Shown: one piece after another, positions 182 through 7,953 of the stretch
How the letters are laid out: each line of letters begins with the position of its first letter
Position numbering within the stretch: the first letter of the stretch is position 1
NCBI GenBank assembly: GCA_947460175.1
Contig: CANHGW010000010.1
Location: 1-64,000, forward strand
From: Bacteroidota bacterium
GTDB lineage: Bacteria > Bacteroidota > Bacteroidia > Chitinophagales > Chitinophagaceae
Direction of reading: 5' to 3'
Length of the DNA stretch: 64,000 bases
Position numbers and translations under genes: made by a program
The notes under the pieces: generated by a model
Told to the model about the DNA's origin: nothing
Databases searched by the model: none
The model's input: the letters and a program-made list of their open reading frames with translations, nothing else

Positions 182-1870
182 TTAGTTCATTCCAATAATT
201 TTGTTATCCCAATTATATAAATCTTTGAGAAACATAATATTTCCTGTACTATCCAATGCCGTTGTTAAGTAGACAAAATGCACATTGATATCGCGCGTCA
301 TAGGAACGAAAATAGTTTTTCGAAGTTTACAAATAGAATCAACTTTTTGATATGAATAATTGGCTGAATCGCGCAATAAAAATGCAGCAAATTCCTTTGG
401 CTTATGTACACGCACACAACCAGAGCTGTATGCTCTAAAAGTTTTTACAAAATCTTCTCGATGAGGCGTATCATGCATATAAATTGACCATGGATTCGGC
501 ATATTAAATTTGACTTCTCCGAGCGAACTGCGGTATCCTGGCGCTTGGCTAAATGAAAAGTTTTTATAATTACTTGCGTTGATACCTGATCCACTTACTT
601 GCCTGCCTCGTCGGTCATATGCTTTCAATCCTTTACGAGCAAGATATCCACCACCTCTTCGCGATAGGCCAGGCAAAACATCTTCTCTTAAAATCGTAGG
701 AGGAACAACCCATGGCGGACTAAAAACAATATCTTTCAATTTGGTATCCAATGTCATCGTATTACGTGCAGGACGTCCTACTACAGTTCGCATATTAAAC
801 TGTACAGAATCATTCTCAACATATTCAACTTCCATTTTAGGTATATCCGCCCATATGTATGGTTGCTTGAAATCATGTCGAAGCCATCGCATACGCTCCA
901 TATTGATAGCTAATGTTTTCTGTTTATTATCAATACCCACATTCAATTTTTTCAATGTAGATGTATCCAATTTGCCATTGGTTTTTAAACCATTTCTAAA
1001 TTGATATTTTTTAATTAATTCTATTAATCCTTCGTCACAGATAGAGCTCGCTGAATCAATAGGATGATTCAATTCTTTTGACAGTCGTTTTCGAAGCAAT
1101 GCAATATCAGGTGATTGAAATCCTATTGCGATGGAATCTTTGATGCCTGATATAGTTTCGAGACCATCTTCTTTTTTCAAATTTTCCAATCGAATGTACT
1201 CCTCTCTAAATTTAGTATACCAAGGATGCTTTGGTCGCATAAAATTTATCACTTCCTCAAAATTATCAGCAACCATTGATTTCTTTAAGGCATCAACCTC
1301 ATCAAAAATTGAATCATTGATATTTTTCCAATTTTTATTCGATTTATTTAAATTATAATAGCGCCCAATTACTAAATCATGCGAAACTGTAAAGAACGAT
1401 TTCGTCATGCCTAATTCAAATTGAACCCAGTCTGCATCTGATAACGATTGACTAGATTTAAACTTATCGTATGCAGGATTGTTTTTAAAAATATTATAAT
1501 CAGCTGGATTTAAGCCATCAAACTGAACCGATTCAATAGCCTTAAGAAAATTATCTGCATTTAGATTAATACCATTTTCATTAATCCAGACTGGACTGAA
1601 TTGTTGATCGGAATAAAAGCGTAACATTTGATTTCTTATCAACGTATCTGAATGAAGCGTATCATGTTGATTAAATTCAATTGTACCATTTGAATTTAAG
1701 TTTTCTTTTATCAAAGCAGCAACAGCATCTGTATTAACTGAAGCTTTCGGATAATTTGTTTTAGCTGGCTTTTCTTTATTTTCTTTGTTGAATTCGCAGG
1801 AAGTAAAATGTATCATTAACAGAATACACAACAGGGATTCTTTGATAAAGTTAGGCTTAATAGGTTTCAT
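182..1870 (-). CDS. Murein L,D-transpeptidase, YcbB/LdtD type
   Basis: This predicted periplasmic enzyme forms 3-3 peptidoglycan cross-links. Residues 1-25 are a lipoprotein signal ending in FTSC, which predicts a lipidated Cys. A scaffold region follows (about 70-240), then a peptidoglycan-binding-like helical repeat (about 255-315, with LIKKYQFRNGLKTNG) and a YkuD catalytic domain (about 335-510). The catalytic motif SSGCVRV places the nucleophile Cys near residue 485, and the upstream HDTPHRE block is also present. Length (562 residues) fits the YcbB class. A frame opening at a TTG at 1882 lies inside a -7 promoter box, so I chose the ATG at 1870, which puts the lipobox in the usual place. 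The gene is probably monocistronic and is divergent from the ECF sigma gene. Confidence 0.9.
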   Translation of the reverse strand: MKPIKPNFIKESLLCILLMIHFTSCEFNKENKEKPAKTNYPKASVNTDAVAALIKENLNSNGTIEFNQHDTLHSDTLIRNQMLRFYSDQQFSPVWINENGINLNADNFLKAIESVQFDGLNPADYNIFKNNPAYDKFKSSQSLSDADWVQFELGMTKSFFTVSHDLVIGRYYNLNKSNKNWKNINDSIFDEVDALKKSMVADNFEEVINFMRPKHPWYTKFREEYIRLENLKKEDGLETISGIKDSIAIGFQSPDIALLRKRLSKELNHPIDSASSICDEGLIELIKKYQFRNGLKTNGKLDTSTLKKLNVGIDNKQKTLAINMERMRWLRHDFKQPYIWADIPKMEVEYVENDSVQFNMRTVVGRPARNTMTLDTKLKDIVFSPPWVVPPTILREDVLPGLSRRGGGYLARKGLKAYDRRGRQVSGSGINASNYKNFSFSQAPGYRSSLGEVKFNMPNPWSIYMHDTPHREDFVKTFRAYSSGCVRVHKPKEFAAFLLRDSANYSYQKVDSICKLRKTIFVPMTRDINVHFVYLTTALDSTGNIMFLKDLYNWDNKIIGMN

Positions 1871-1887: not shown

Positions 1888-1949
1888 AATTTTTATTCTT
1901 ATCTATGCTTCATTAGAATATCCACATTTTTTTAAATCACATTAAACTT

Positions 1950-1958
1950 TATATTTAC
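1950..1958 (+). promoter_or_regulatory. -7-like box for the ECF sigma operon
   Basis: TATATTTAC resembles TAnnTTTG with the last G changed to A. It lies 40 bases before the ATG of the sigma gene. It is one of several TAnnTTTA variants placed before starts in this window. Confidence 0.4.
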
Positions 1959-1998
1959 ACTCTGGTCCAAGCACTAATTGCCTTAATCAGAACTCGAA

Positions 1999-2547
1999 AT
2001 GGCCGAAATCAACGATCAGGACATATTGGACTTATTTCAAGTAGCCTCTACACGCGAGAGGGCTTTTTCCCTTTTAGTAAAAAAATACCAAGAAAGGCTT
2101 TATTGGCATATTCGTCGTTTGGTGGTGCATCATGAAGATACCAATGATGTACTTCAAAATATGCTAATAAAAGTTTGGCGAAATCTTGAAAATTTCAGAC
2201 AAGATGCTGGATTATACACTTGGTTATATCGAATTGCTACAAACGAAAGTCTTACCTATCTTGATCAACAAAAGAAAAAAAGCACCTATTCAATATCCGA
2301 TCATGAGTCTGGATTGGCCAATTCAATCAAAGCTGAAAAGGGATTTGATGCCAATAAATTAGAATGGAAGCTTCAATTGGCTATTCAATCCTTGCCAGAA
2401 AAACAACGAGCCGTATTCTGTTTGCGCTATTATGATGAAATGCCCTACGAAAAAATGTCGCATGTTTTAGAAACATCCGAAGGATCACTGAAAGCCTCTT
2501 ATCATCATGCAGCAAAAAAAGTAGAAGAATATATTAGAAATAATTAA
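1999..2547 (+). CDS. RNA polymerase sigma factor, ECF family
   Basis: At 182 residues this is the usual size of an ECF (sigma-24 type) factor. Region 2 is visible at about 15-85 (RLYWHIRRLVVHHEDTNDVL, then TWLYRIATN), and region 4 at about 125-180 (LPEKQRAVFCLRYYDEMPY, then the SEGSLKASYHHAAKKVEE helix-turn-helix). ECF factors direct transcription of envelope or stress regulons and are usually restrained by a partner encoded next door. The following gene encodes a single-pass membrane protein and the third gene a periplasmic sensor-like protein, all on one strand with gaps of 33 and 8 bases, so they probably form one operon. The target regulon is not evident. Confidence 0.92.
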   Translation: MAEINDQDILDLFQVASTRERAFSLLVKKYQERLYWHIRRLVVHHEDTNDVLQNMLIKVWRNLENFRQDAGLYTWLYRIATNESLTYLDQQKKKSTYSISDHESGLANSIKAEKGFDANKLEWKLQLAIQSLPEKQRAVFCLRYYDEMPYEKMSHVLETSEGSLKASYHHAAKKVEEYIRNN

Positions 2548-2580
2548 ACTTAAGCCTAAAAAAAGAGTCAAAGATTCGTA

Positions 2581-3231
2581 ATGCAACAAAAAATCAACAT
2601 AGAACAAGAATTAAATGATTTGCAACTTAAGGTGCCAATTGTGTCTATGCCTGAATTTTCAGTGCCTGTAGGTTATTTTGACAATTTGGAAATGTCAGTC
2701 TTAGATAGAATCCATTCAGAAGATTTTATTGCCCAATTGCCCAAAAACATGCCATTTGATGTACCTCAAGGTTATTTTGATCAATTGACCAATGAATTAA
2801 ATACAAGTTTTTCACTTGAACAACTACCTAAAAACACGCCTTATCAAGTTCCTATTGGTTATTTTAACGACTTAGACACCCAAATACTATCTAAGATTGC
2901 TCAAACTAAGCCTGCACTTAAACCATTAAAAGTATCATCACGTCGATTTGCACCTTTATCGATGGCTGCAAGTATCCTCTTTTTTATTGTATCTGGTTTT
3001 TTTCTAATCAACCAACAGTCTTCTCCTAGTGTTGAACAACAATTGGCTAAAATATCTGATGATGAAATTAACTTATATATTCAAGCCCATCAACAAGAGT
3101 TTGAAACTGACCTAGTTTCGGCAGAAGCGCTGGATGATAGCCAAGTAGACATACCAACACTTGAAAAGGATATCATTGAAAATCAATTAAATACACTTAC
3201 AAAAGAAGAACTTTCTTCATACATTTTATAA
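2581..3231 (+). CDS. Single-pass membrane protein with three VPxGYF repeats, candidate anti-sigma partner
   Basis: I do not recognise a named family. The cytoplasm-side half carries three spaced copies of a short motif: VPVGYF (28-33), VPQGYF (61-66) and VPIGYF (90-95), each followed by D/N-x-L. The second and third are preceded by LPKN. A basic stretch leads into one transmembrane segment at about 124-143, followed by an acidic, Gln-rich tail of about 70 residues. Gene order (ECF sigma, membrane protein, periplasmic protein) and topology fit an anti-sigma factor, but the zinc-binding HxxxCxxC pattern of classical anti-sigma factors is absent. The function is inferred from context only. The stop is 8 bases before the next gene. 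Confidence 0.75.
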   Translation: MQQKINIEQELNDLQLKVPIVSMPEFSVPVGYFDNLEMSVLDRIHSEDFIAQLPKNMPFDVPQGYFDQLTNELNTSFSLEQLPKNTPYQVPIGYFNDLDTQILSKIAQTKPALKPLKVSSRRFAPLSMAASILFFIVSGFFLINQQSSPSVEQQLAKISDDEINLYIQAHQQEFETDLVSAEALDDSQVDIPTLEKDIIENQLNTLTKEELSSYIL

Positions 3232-3239
3232 AAACAATC

Positions 3240-3794
3240 ATGAAACACTTATTACTTGTATCTACATTTTTAATTCTATTTTTTGGAGCATTTGCTCAAA
3301 AAGGCGAACGCATCGAAAGCCTTAAAATTGCTCATTTATCTGGCAAATTGAACCTTGACCCTAAAACAGCGGAACGATTTTGGCCTTTGTACAACCAATA
3401 TGAAAGTGAAATGCAACAGATTGTACTCGAAAAAAGAAGAATGAATCAAAATGATACTCGCTCGGCTGATGAAATTTTGGATCAAGAGCAAAAAGCGATT
3501 GATTTAAAACGTAAATACAATGCGCAATTTTTAAAAGTAATTGATAATAATCAATTGAATCAAATGTATCAGGCTGAGAAGGAATTTAGACAAATGATTA
3601 TCAAACGTTCACAACGCATGGATAATAACCCTGTAAGAGAAAACCGACGTATGAACCAAAATCCTGAACAATTTAACCATCAAGGACCAGGACGCAGAAT
3701 GCAAGCTCCTTCAAATGGTGGCAGAAACAATAATCAATCTCCTGAGATCAACAGACCTTCAAAACAATCACGCGTTCCGATGGAAGGTAGATAA
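3240..3794 (+). CDS. Secreted sensor-of-ECF-type protein
   Basis: A signal peptide (about 1-20, ending FGAFAQ) precedes a helical domain with IESLKIAHLSGKLNL and ERFWPLYNQYE. These are hallmarks of the short periplasmic proteins annotated in Flavobacteriia as sensor of ECF-type sigma factor, which resemble the helical Spy/CpxP type in composition. The C-terminal third is rich in Asn, Arg, Gln and Met and looks disordered. It is the last gene of the ECF operon and the likely envelope-side partner of the membrane protein upstream. The family name is from memory of similar sequences; the stimulus is unknown. Confidence 0.7.
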   Translation: MKHLLLVSTFLILFFGAFAQKGERIESLKIAHLSGKLNLDPKTAERFWPLYNQYESEMQQIVLEKRRMNQNDTRSADEILDQEQKAIDLKRKYNAQFLKVIDNNQLNQMYQAEKEFRQMIIKRSQRMDNNPVRENRRMNQNPEQFNHQGPGRRMQAPSNGGRNNNQSPEINRPSKQSRVPMEGR

Positions 3795-4555: not shown

Positions 4556-5884
4556 TTAACGAAGCACCATTTGTCGGTCGGCGTCCAACCGTATCAGAAT
4601 AAAAATTAAAACTGCAAAAGTCAAAAGCGAAGTACCTCCATAGCTAATTAATGGCAATGGTATTCCAATTACAGGAGCAACACCAATAGTCATTCCTATA
4701 TTGATAACTAAATGAAAAAATAAAATCCCAGCCACACCATAAGCATATACCCTACTAAATTGAGATCGTTGACGCTCGGCAATATGTACAATTCGAAGTA
4801 AAAAGGTGACATACAATAAGATTAATAAGGTACTACCCCAAAATCCAAATTGCTCACCTATGCTACAAAATATAAAGTCGGTTCGTTGTTCAGGTACCCA
4901 ATTATATTTAGTTTGACTACCATTCAAAAAGCCTTTTCCAAGAAAACCTCCAGAGGCAATCGCTATTTTGGACTGACTCACGTTATACTCTGATGCATTT
5001 TGCTTTTTATTATCAACTCCATCTCTAGTATATTCATCGGGTACATCTTGCCCTATCATGGTATAAATACGTTGTACTTGATACCCTTTCAATACATTTT
5101 TAAATGCAAAAGGAACTAATACTTGTGAAAACAAGACACCTACTAACCATATAGCAGCTACAACAATGAGCAAATCTTTTGATCGTTTTAATTGTTTGCG
5201 TTGTGTATACAGTATCCCTAAGGCAATTATAGTAAGTAAAATAAATAAAATATTTTTAGGGATAAGTAAAGTAGCAAGTGTAAGTGCAATAATTGAAAAG
5301 CCAATAACCAATACAATATTAGGTAAGCCTTCACGATACATAGCTAAAAAAAACGAAAAATAAACCAATGCTAAGCCAGTTTCATTTTGCATTATGATAA
5401 TTAATGAGGGTACCAACGCAAAACCAGCACACATCAACCGATGTTTTAAGGTAGAAAAATTAACTTCTTGCAATGATAAAAACTTAGCGATAGACAATGC
5501 TGTAAACAACTTCATCAATTCTCCAGGTTGAAATGTAAAAAAGCCTAAATTTAACCATGAGTGCGAGCCTTTTACACCTTTACCAAGGGGCGTAAGTGCT
5601 AGTAGAAGCAATACGATTCCAATTATATATCCTAAAAATGGAATTGATGTAAACAGTTTACTATCTGTCATTAATATTATAAAACCTACAATTAAAGAAA
5701 TACCTAAAAAAATCAATTGCTTAGAATAGCTTTTGCTTAAAATGATAAACGACAAATCAGTCTCACGATGTTCTACAGCATATATACTCAAAACACCAAT
5801 AACCGATAAGATGATGAATAAAAATACCATCAGCCAATCGATTCTCTCTAAGAGTGTAGTGGGTTTAAATGTTGTTTGCTTCAC
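4556..5884 (-). CDS. rodA: Rod-shape SEDS glycosyltransferase RodA
   Basis: This 442-residue polytopic membrane protein belongs to the FtsW/RodA/SpoVE (SEDS) family. About ten hydrophobic segments are visible. Diagnostic blocks include GKGVKGSHSWLNLG, FQPGELMKL, ASGGFLGKGF, WVPEQRTDFIF and the C-terminal PLISYGGTSLL. RodA polymerises lipid II into glycan strands during side-wall growth and works with PBP2, which is encoded just upstream with an 8-base gap. A MreBCD cluster, often adjacent in relatives, is not in this window. RodA is preferred over FtsW because of the pairing with mrdA. Confidence 0.93.
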   Translation of the reverse strand: MKQTTFKPTTLLERIDWLMVFLFIILSVIGVLSIYAVEHRETDLSFIILSKSYSKQLIFLGISLIVGFIILMTDSKLFTSIPFLGYIIGIVLLLLALTPLGKGVKGSHSWLNLGFFTFQPGELMKLFTALSIAKFLSLQEVNFSTLKHRLMCAGFALVPSLIIIMQNETGLALVYFSFFLAMYREGLPNIVLVIGFSIIALTLATLLIPKNILFILLTIIALGILYTQRKQLKRSKDLLIVVAAIWLVGVLFSQVLVPFAFKNVLKGYQVQRIYTMIGQDVPDEYTRDGVDNKKQNASEYNVSQSKIAIASGGFLGKGFLNGSQTKYNWVPEQRTDFIFCSIGEQFGFWGSTLLILLYVTFLLRIVHIAERQRSQFSRVYAYGVAGILFFHLVINIGMTIGVAPVIGIPLPLISYGGTSLLTFAVLIFILIRLDADRQMVLR

Positions 5885-5892
5885 AAATAATG

Positions 5893-7953
5893 TTAATTTA
5901 TCGATTTACTTTTTAGTCCGAAATAGCGTTTATAGTAATAAGCTGCTTTTATAGAATCATCTATATGTCGTATACTATCTTTCTTAAAATTTATGAGTGC
6001 CAAGCTATCTTTTGGCAATCGCTTTAACCTATCTCGTTCGATTGCTTGTTGCTTTTCAATAGAATCAATGATATAGGTATAATTAGGAATAATTTTAGCA
6101 TTCTGCATTTTTTTCACTAAAGGCATTCTTTTTGCTGAAATGGTATCCTTTAGGTATTGTTCTATCATAAGACTTGCGATAGGCCCAGCCCATGTAGCTC
6201 CATAACCAGAGTTTTCAATACAAACAGCTACTGCAATTTTTGGATTGATGCGAGGAGCAAATGCAACAAATAAAGAGTGATTTTGAAGTTTTACACGCTT
6301 CCCGTTAATCATACGTTCATTTTGAGCAGTACCCGTTTTGCCACAAACCTCTATGCCTGGTATTTGTGCAATTTTACCTGTACCTTGATTCACTACTTCC
6401 ATCATACCGACACTCACGTAATTGTATGCAGAATCAGCAATTTGAGCGACTTGATGTTTCTTAAGATAAGGGGCTAATAAGGTATGATTACTATCTCTGT
6501 CAATAGACTTTACAAAGTGAGGAACATAATAATAACCTTTATTGGCAATTATACACATTGCATTGGCCAATTGAAGTGGAGTCAACAATACTTCACCCTG
6601 TCCCATTCCAATTATACTCATATTACATGAATTCCAATTATTATTATATATTCGATTAAAGTAATTGGAATCAGGTATATTACCACCACTTTCTGAAGGT
6701 ATATCAACACCTGTTGGGTGACCAAGTCCAAAATCAGTCATATACTGATTCCAACGTTGAAGACCAACATGTACATTTTTGTATTTAGGAGCATCTATAG
6801 ACAATCTGAAGATATGACAAAAATAAGAGTTACATGAATTGGCAATAGCAAACGCAAGATTTCGGGCATGACCTCCACCCGTATGGGTACATCCTATTCG
6901 GCGACCACATGCATAATACCCACCACCACAAGGATATCCATAAGATGGATTTATTACACCCTCATCTAAGGCTACTAAAGCAGTGATAGGCTTAAACGTA
7001 GATCCTGGCGGGTAATTAGCCTGTATCGCTCTATTGAATAATGGCTTTGTAGCGTCAGTCAATAATTTCCCCAAATTCCTCCCTTTATCAGCACCTGTAA
7101 GTAATGTAGGGTCAAAAGTGGGTCCACTTGCAAACGCAAGAATACCACCCGTTTCAGGATCAATGGCAACTGCGCTTCCTAATTTATTGGCAAGCATCGA
7201 CTCTGTTAATTTTTGCAATTTGGCATCTATATAAAGCTGCAAAGGCTTCCCTGGAATGGCATTGGAGTCCAATGTGCCATTTTTGTAGGGCCCTTGAATG
7301 CGTTGTTTTACATCTCTTAATAGATACTGCACACCAGGTCTTCCACGTAATACTTCTTCATAGTGATTTTCAAGGCCTGTAATACCCAAATAATCACCTT
7401 TTTCATAATCTCTGTATTTTTCTTTTTCCAATTGTTTGGCACTGATTTCATTGATATAACCTATGAAACTTCCACCACATTCGTAGGTAAAATTTCGTTC
7501 GGAATGTTCTACTAATTCGCACCCTTGAAACTCATAAATATTTTCTTGCAATCGAGCAACAGCACTAGGCGATAAATTTCGATACATGGCAATATTCTTA
7601 ATGCCCCACCCGTATTTATTAATCATCTTTTTAAACTGAAGTCTGAAATCTTCGTTGTTTATATTGAGTAACTTACATAAAAAAGTAGTGTCAAAATCTT
7701 CTTTGATTTTTTTAGGTTCAACTACAAAATCATATACAATACTATTATTCATCATCACTACATTTTTACGATCATAAATCGTACCACGTGGTGGATATAT
7801 TTTTTTAATATAGACTGCTTGACCTAATGCTGCTTGCTTGTACCCGCCGATATCAAATACCTGTAAAAAAAGTAGCCTTAATACCAAAATAACAGGAATA
7901 ATCGTAAAAAGAATACGTATATAATTACTCCTATCTTGTGTAAAATCAGCCAT
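5893..7953 (-). CDS. mrdA: Penicillin-binding protein 2, class B transpeptidase
   Basis: The 686-residue protein has one N-terminal membrane anchor (about 11-32), a PBP dimerisation region including PPRGTIYDRK, and a transpeptidase domain. The active-site Ser lies in PPGSTFKP (Ser about 318, Lys about 321), with SCN near 370 and KTGTAQN near 540. It cross-links peptidoglycan during elongation and partners with RodA. The C-terminal 60 residues are charged and Lys-rich beyond the domain. The start is an ATG; a -7 box lies about 25 bases upstream. The mrdA-rodA pair is the conserved elongasome arrangement. Confidence 0.94.
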   Translation of the reverse strand: MADFTQDRSNYIRILFTIIPVILVLRLLFLQVFDIGGYKQAALGQAVYIKKIYPPRGTIYDRKNVVMMNNSIVYDFVVEPKKIKEDFDTTFLCKLLNINNEDFRLQFKKMINKYGWGIKNIAMYRNLSPSAVARLQENIYEFQGCELVEHSERNFTYECGGSFIGYINEISAKQLEKEKYRDYEKGDYLGITGLENHYEEVLRGRPGVQYLLRDVKQRIQGPYKNGTLDSNAIPGKPLQLYIDAKLQKLTESMLANKLGSAVAIDPETGGILAFASGPTFDPTLLTGADKGRNLGKLLTDATKPLFNRAIQANYPPGSTFKPITALVALDEGVINPSYGYPCGGGYYACGRRIGCTHTGGGHARNLAFAIANSCNSYFCHIFRLSIDAPKYKNVHVGLQRWNQYMTDFGLGHPTGVDIPSESGGNIPDSNYFNRIYNNNWNSCNMSIIGMGQGEVLLTPLQLANAMCIIANKGYYYVPHFVKSIDRDSNHTLLAPYLKKHQVAQIADSAYNYVSVGMMEVVNQGTGKIAQIPGIEVCGKTGTAQNERMINGKRVKLQNHSLFVAFAPRINPKIAVAVCIENSGYGATWAGPIASLMIEQYLKDTISAKRMPLVKKMQNAKIIPNYTYIIDSIEKQQAIERDRLKRLPKDSLALINFKKDSIRHIDDSIKAAYYYKRYFGLKSKSIN

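Follow-up and report, generated by a model that had tools for sequence, protein, structure and literature searches.

The operon and its family

The 64,000-nucleotide stretch of DNA analyzed here (the window; contig CANHGW010000010.1 of a Bacteroidota bacterium of the family Chitinophagaceae) carries an operon of three same-strand open reading frames (ORFs), which encode an extracytoplasmic function (ECF) sigma factor, a membrane protein that is a candidate anti-sigma factor, and a small helical protein (Table 1). ORF1 matches the Pfam domains Sigma70_r2 (E 9.5e-14) and Sigma70_r4_2 (E 1.8e-11), and the solved ECF sigma factors nearest to it are sigma-H, E. coli RpoE and SigW. A preliminary description of this DNA had proposed an ECF sigma operon whose membrane partner crosses the membrane once, carries three VPxGYF(D/N)xL repeats and lacks the zinc motif of known anti-sigma factors. 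The gene arrangement and the character of the partner both hold: the motifs of ORF2 are spaced 33 and 29 residues apart, there is a single hydrophobic segment, and the zinc motif is absent because the protein has no cysteine. Searches of Pfam and NCBIfam returned no family at the cut-off for ORF2 or ORF3. A chance origin of the ORF2 repeats was rejected, with VPxGYF[DN]xL appearing in 0 of 200,000 composition shuffles, not even as one copy. The ORF2 gene is single-copy in the source genome, where all three matches to the VPxGYF DNA pattern lie within ORF2.

Table 1. Genes, motifs and promoter elements of the operon, by position in the window (aa, amino acids).
Feature	Position	Strand	Basis
ECF sigma factor, ORF1, 182 aa	1999..2547	+	Pfam Sigma70_r2/Sigma70_r4_2
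ORF2, putative anti-sigma factor, 216 aa: cytoplasmic repeats, single transmembrane (TM) helix, short periplasmic tail	2581..3231	+	ORF list, hydropathy, sigma covariation
Repeat 1 motif VPVGYFDNL, aa 28-36 of ORF2	2662..2688	+	sequence
Repeat 2 motif VPQGYFDQL, aa 61-69 of ORF2	2761..2787	+	sequence; AlphaFold2 (AF2) fusion helix 259-273 begins inside
Repeat 3 motif VPIGYFNDL, aa 90-98 of ORF2, membrane-proximal	2848..2874	+	sequence; AF2 fusion helix 288-302 begins inside
TM segment, aa 125-143 of ORF2	2953..3009	+	hydropathy 2.18
ORF3, secreted five-helix protein, 184 aa	3240..3794	+	operon position like that of Spy/CnrX; no significant fold match
ECF-type promoter element TTAAAC-N17-GTCCA, upstream of sigma gene	1942..1969	+	pattern match, family-wide counts
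ECF-type promoter element TTAAAC-N17-GTCAA, reading into anti-sigma gene; includes sigma stop TAA 2545-2547	2544..2571	+	pattern match, family-wide counts

Relatives were found with the ORF2 protein alone in 44 of 59 related genomes. Across the phylum, an ORF2-family profile matches 137 of 395 genomes, a count inflated by weak matches, since 5 of 20 fetched matches are not family: four (L061, L062, L064, L065) belong to sigma/anti-sigma pairs of other kinds, and the fifth, L063, lacks a sigma gene. A single-motif profile matches 98 of 149 genomes in Bacteroidales, the order of the relative G403. With duplicates removed (L031, L032, L033, L039, L081, L082) and weaker profile matches only partly fetched (G516, for example, was left out), 224 distinct loci were examined. 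In 219 of these an ECF sigma gene is followed directly by a partner, which in four cases is of another anti-sigma type; L106, L114, L119 and L141 failed the pair test, probably through a missing partner ORF call or a contig end. The family pair is present in 215 of the 224 loci and the third gene too in 210, and two of the five pairs that lack it (L122, L219) are apparently cut by contig ends. All genes of the counted operons lie on the same strand and in the same order, and the complete three-gene operon is found in 76 of 80 named Bacteroidales loci. That the motif family occurs mostly away from ECF genes was rejected: across 39 relatives the VPxGYF DNA pattern matched 82 times and its reversed control 72 times, 18 of the 82 (counted from match rows) lie inside family loci, and outside the operon the motif is at background level. 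The expectation that VPxGYF repeats would be found adjoining ECF sigma genes across Bacteroidota is thus borne out.

Several members have unusual partners. In the other three pairs without the third gene, L128 (58-1443), L142 (1318-2697) and L144 (267-1793), the partner carries a single VPxGYF-type motif and a TM helix and is extended by a long stretch that ends in a CHU_C type IX secretion domain; the fetched stretches of these loci showed no Spy-like gene. The 450-residue partners that adjoin the sigma gene in L073 (2299-3648) and L074 (1915-3264) contain many degenerate YFxxF-type helices. In L011 (G004:C1:679911-680557), from a genome that forms one contig, the middle gene is split near its periplasmic end into two matches, which points to a frameshift.

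Predicted contact with the sigma factor and probable origin of the motif

Motif copies were counted in 206 of the 215 members, nine loci without a clear motif being left out. A single copy is found in 130 members, two copies in 37, three in 25 and four to seven in 14. When members with three or more copies are labeled on the sigma tree, the label requires at least seven changes on well-supported branches, so repeats have been gained or lost repeatedly.

Direct-coupling analysis was applied to the 206 sigma-partner pairs, using the membrane-proximal motif of each partner. The highest couplings join sigma L52 to motif position +8, I57 to +12 and N49 to +11, with Q31/+9 and V27/+13 also within the top seven, and these five sigma positions fall in regions 2.1 and 2.2. 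In a first control of 8 global and 8 within-cluster permutations, the real top score of 1.96 exceeded every permuted one (1.67 at most), and sigma residues 16-65 held 7 of the ten highest couplings as opposed to 0-4 in the permutations. A larger control of 68 within-cluster permutations gave at most one coupling above 1.6 each, compared with three in the real data, and three other segments of the ORF2 family gave top scores of 1.18-1.44, none above 1.6. The couplings can be expressed as pairing rules. Phenylalanine at +8 occurs in 0 of 61 pairs with V, T or I at sigma position 52 (21 sigma clusters) and in 65 of 134 with L52; K or R at +11 occurs in 83 of 128 pairs with D49 and 13 of 72 with N49; and E or D at +9 occurs in 15 of 30 pairs with K31 and 15 of 145 with Q31. 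Fisher values for these rules overstate their significance because related sequences are not independent. Covariation places the motif on sigma regions 2.1/2.2, in agreement with the earlier suggestion that the repeats are short linear motifs for sigma-factor binding. When the motif is set onto the crystal-contact table in the available part of PMC7406223, an offset of 47 gives the best register at a tolerance of one residue.

The earlier repeats had been left out of the coupling analysis and were then checked against the same rules. Phenylalanine at +8 is found in 1 of 43 earlier repeats with V, T or I at sigma52 and 29 of 88 with L52, and E or D at +9 in 17 of 21 with K31 and 20 of 119 with Q31. 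Their hydrophobic face is kept at +12 (96%) and +16 (89%), as in last repeats (95% and 85%). Because the earlier repeats follow two pairing rules and keep the hydrophobic face, this evidence supports each repeat as a sigma2-binding unit. In an AF2 model of a sigma-ORF2 fusion, helices at 230-239, 259-273 and 288-302 (minus 194 for ORF2 residues) each start within a motif or at its end. The ORF2 family also has a conserved N-terminal stretch (E10, L11), which could contact sigma4.

Several observations weigh against placing the motif on sigma regions 2.1/2.2. Among the 68 within-cluster permutations, one had a top score as high as that of the real data and one equaled the count of seven, and couplings to sigma positions outside region 2 (I110, K152) are also within the top eight. 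At zero tolerance an offset of 51 ranks slightly above 47, which is then second, so the motif register is supported but not fixed. The rule pairing D49 with K or R is weak in earlier repeats (16/73 with D49 vs 5/66), and the AF2 fusion has a predicted template modeling score (pTM) of 0.49, with no interface readable. It is possible, though we lean against it, that only the membrane-proximal repeat binds sigma and that the earlier ones are spacers or bind a protease, RNA polymerase or other sigma factors: most members have a single motif, the invariant residues P91, Y94 and F95 (27 aligned members) lie in the last repeat, and the D49 rule is strong only there, but the conserved hydrophobic face of the earlier repeats and their adherence to the sigma52 and sigma31 rules speak for binding by every copy.

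The probable source of the motif is indicated by relatives that retain a zinc domain. In class I anti-sigma domains (ASDI), helices 1-3 and a linker are followed by a helix 4 that binds sigma2 (PMC7406223, in part). In L068-L070, which come from other classes of the phylum, a zf-HC2 domain above the Pfam cut-off is followed by one VPxxYF/IPxxYF helix in the same operon. A phmmer search aligns the L069 protein to RsiW (5wuq_C, from the SigW-RsiW crystal structure; E 1.5e-5), and the alignment runs through the zinc part and onward over the VPENYF segment. On this evidence, the motif helix is most likely the counterpart of helix 4 in the class I domain. Two further ASDI features are found: covariation and the RsiW alignment place the helix of the ORF2 family on sigma regions 2.1/2.2, and ORF2 is encoded beside an ECF sigma gene and has a TM helix. 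The three-helix bundle that binds sigma4 was not found in ORF2, which has no zf-HC2 or other anti-sigma Pfam match; only 27 residues precede its repeat 1, and in L072 the motif already stands at residue 6. ORF2 resembles the class I factors RseA, RsiW, ChrR and RskA in having one helix type for sigma 2.1/2.2, a single TM segment and an adjoining sigma gene, but differs from them in lacking the zinc motif and helices 1-3 and in repeating helix 4. Zinc binding is not obligatory for ASDI. On the sigma tree the zinc-domain members fall outside the main group of 206, with the root uncertain on account of long outgroup rows. Loss of the zinc bundle and retention of the helix, which was then multiplied 2-7 times in some lineages, is the simplest reading and most likely the correct one.

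Promoter elements and the third protein

A two-box element, TAAAC-N16to18-GTC, is found upstream of 78 of 214 sigma genes, where shuffles give 0-5. It is commoner at the sigma/anti-sigma junction, which has it in 134 of 215 loci; shuffles there give 0-3, and the reverse strand has no copy. The junction spacing is 17 in 133 of the 134, and in 117 of 215 loci, the window included, the -35 box (TAAAC) begins with the sigma gene's own stop codon, TAA. The window operon has both copies. Loci from other classes have the upstream copy in 7 of 9 cases and the junction copy in 0 of 9, while among named Bacteroidales loci, 48 of the 76 that include a sigma gene have the strict junction element; no promoter element was found at the junction with the third gene. 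The two boxes resemble those of E. coli sigma-E promoters. From its pattern and position, the junction element is probably a promoter that drives the anti-sigma gene, which suggests negative feedback driven by the sigma factor. A translational or RNA element at this site is improbable: overlap with the stop codon and an end that often falls 10-13 nucleotides short of the anti-sigma gene's first in-frame ATG would fit such a role, but the same element stands upstream of sigma genes, again mostly with a spacing of 17 (43 of 50 matches), and its two boxes enclose free spacer sequence, as in ECF promoters.

The regulon was searched with TTAAAC-N17-GTCNA in the source genome, which gave 8 matches (control 21), 2 of them in the window operon, and with a stricter pattern in 15 genomes, which gave 18 (control 9), 8 of them at the operon by coordinates. 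Since element matches elsewhere are at control level, the regulon that can be seen consists mainly of the operon, which agrees with the effect of cirZ deletion described below.

ORF3 starts with a signal-peptide-like hydrophobic stretch. Its AF2 model has five helices and a low-confidence tail, with a predicted local distance difference test (pLDDT) score of 83.8. A Foldseek search with this model gave a best E of 0.77. Among the PDB fold matches of ORF3, CnrX chains are prominent (Z 5.6-6.7; CpxP 5.1), within a background of helical proteins. A sequence search of the PDB with the ORF3 profile gave no Spy or CnrX match at E up to 10. The third protein may be a chaperone, a sensor or both. Its tail, about residues 125-184 (window 3612-3794), is rich in Asn, Arg and Pro and is missing in many relatives. 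The operon is flanked by minus-strand genes at 182-1882 and 4556-7953 whose translations, read without a search, look like those of an L,D-transpeptidase, RodA and a PBP2-type transpeptidase, all of them cell-wall proteins.

Known systems, proposed mechanism and meaning

The closest described system is that of Phocaeicola vulgatus, in which the ECF sigma/anti-sigma pair cirY/cirZ is co-transcribed with a gene for a relative of the third protein described as a Spy-like chaperone, and cirY, spy and two genes downstream were raised when cirZ was deleted (PMC13114119, in part). A profile search of P. vulgatus ATCC 8482 gave two clear loci with a Spy-like gene. Next to one of them (L312/L325) come CBM9_2 and Glucosaminidase+LysM genes, and because these neighbors match the description in PMC13114119 (in part) it is taken as the cirYZ locus; its partner carries TPDGFFGKMQKQVLERT. 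The other (L244) has VPEGYF and stands before a SusC-like gene, as does the second Spy locus in the available part of that source. Neither locus has the strict promoter pattern; L244 has ATC for GTC at the same spacing. Judged by gene order, CirZ belongs to the ORF2 family, although this assignment draws on gene order and a variant motif, TPDGFF, with a profile match at only E 2e-7, which tells against it. The window operon has the CirYZ-Spy gene order, with an ECF sigma factor, a small one-TM motif partner and a protein that is Spy-like by operon position in succession. The two systems differ in that CirZ has one variant motif in 120 residues and ORF2 three motifs in 216; in its available part, PMC13114119 gives neither the motif nor a binding mode. 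The suggestion of an uncharacterized anti-sigma class holds only in part. The motif helix is most likely helix 4 of a known domain, most members carry one copy, and CirZ has genetic evidence; the motif itself is undescribed in the anti-sigma literature searched, which did not include the key ECF classification, EcfO and Dma1 papers and in which one unrelated enzyme paper shared a substring.

Other systems share fewer features. The class II system CnrY/CnrX/CnrH of Cupriavidus metallidurans also combines an ECF sigma factor, a short one-TM anti-sigma factor and a periplasmic helical protein, and CnrY is not known to carry VPxGYF repeats. CnrX differs from ORF3, with no sequence match and no significant fold match. 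CnrY wraps its sigma factor with two helices, the last of them on sigma2 (PMC7406223, in part); for this two-helix mode (sigma4 and sigma2), covariation supports the sigma2 side in ORF2. The Dma/Reo system of Bacteroidota is alike in pairing an ECF sigma factor with a partner that has an N-terminal sigma-binding part and one inner-membrane helix. It is unlike ORF2 in its long tether and C-terminal outer-membrane beta-barrel, neither of which is found in ORF2, which ends 73 residues past its TM helix.

Taken together, these observations make it very probable that the operon is a self-contained envelope-stress switch, in which ORF2 is a membrane-anchored anti-sigma factor reduced to the sigma2-binding helix 4, in three copies. 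The cytoplasmic part of ORF2 would have lost the zinc three-helix bundle and kept helix 4, now present as three VPxGYF helices. Each of these would dock on sigma regions 2.1/2.2, the surface for the RNA polymerase clamp helices, and the docked sigma factor would be kept off the polymerase. A periplasmic signal, possibly acting through the Spy-like third protein or through proteolysis, would free the sigma factor. The freed sigma factor would then transcribe the anti-sigma and third genes from the predicted promoter at its own stop codon and, in some lineages, the sigma gene too from the same kind of upstream promoter; the elements are seen at both sites, and their activity is presumed. The outcome would be negative feedback together with a supply of chaperone. 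A role for ORF2 as a positive sigma partner (a membrane recruiter or folding helper) is very unlikely: sequence alone cannot separate inhibition from recruitment, covariation marking contact with sigma2 and no more, but zinc-domain relatives of ORF2 align with the anti-sigma factor RsiW, and the predicted contact surface is the one that binds the polymerase (PMC7406223, in part).

A more far-reaching interpretation, which we hold tentatively and at somewhat below even weight, is that an anti-sigma factor was stripped to its sigma2 helix and re-expanded in tandem, with one membrane protein holding several sigma factors (a sponge with a tunable threshold) and wired to a feedback promoter at the stop codon. 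If this is true, the tandem-helix sponge would supply many ECF sigma factors of Bacteroidota with the anti-sigma class that is missing for them.

The class I anti-sigma domain adjoins 6% of Bacteroidetes ECF sigma factors as opposed to 32% across phyla, and the RpoE-like Bacteroidetes group ECF03 has no conserved anti-sigma gene (PMC7406223, in part). A search for the class I domain would probably miss the ORF2 family because the diagnostic part is gone. As a candidate anti-sigma factor, the family may account for the control of a common class of sigma factors in Bacteroidota. Its members would also provide a sequence record of reduction, from zinc domain plus helix to helix alone and then to repeated helix, and the pairing rules predict specific outcomes of charge swaps. 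The promoter at the stop codon would represent a compact feedback design. Ultimately, through CirZ, the ORF2 family would be linked to a gut stress response that is induced in colitis.
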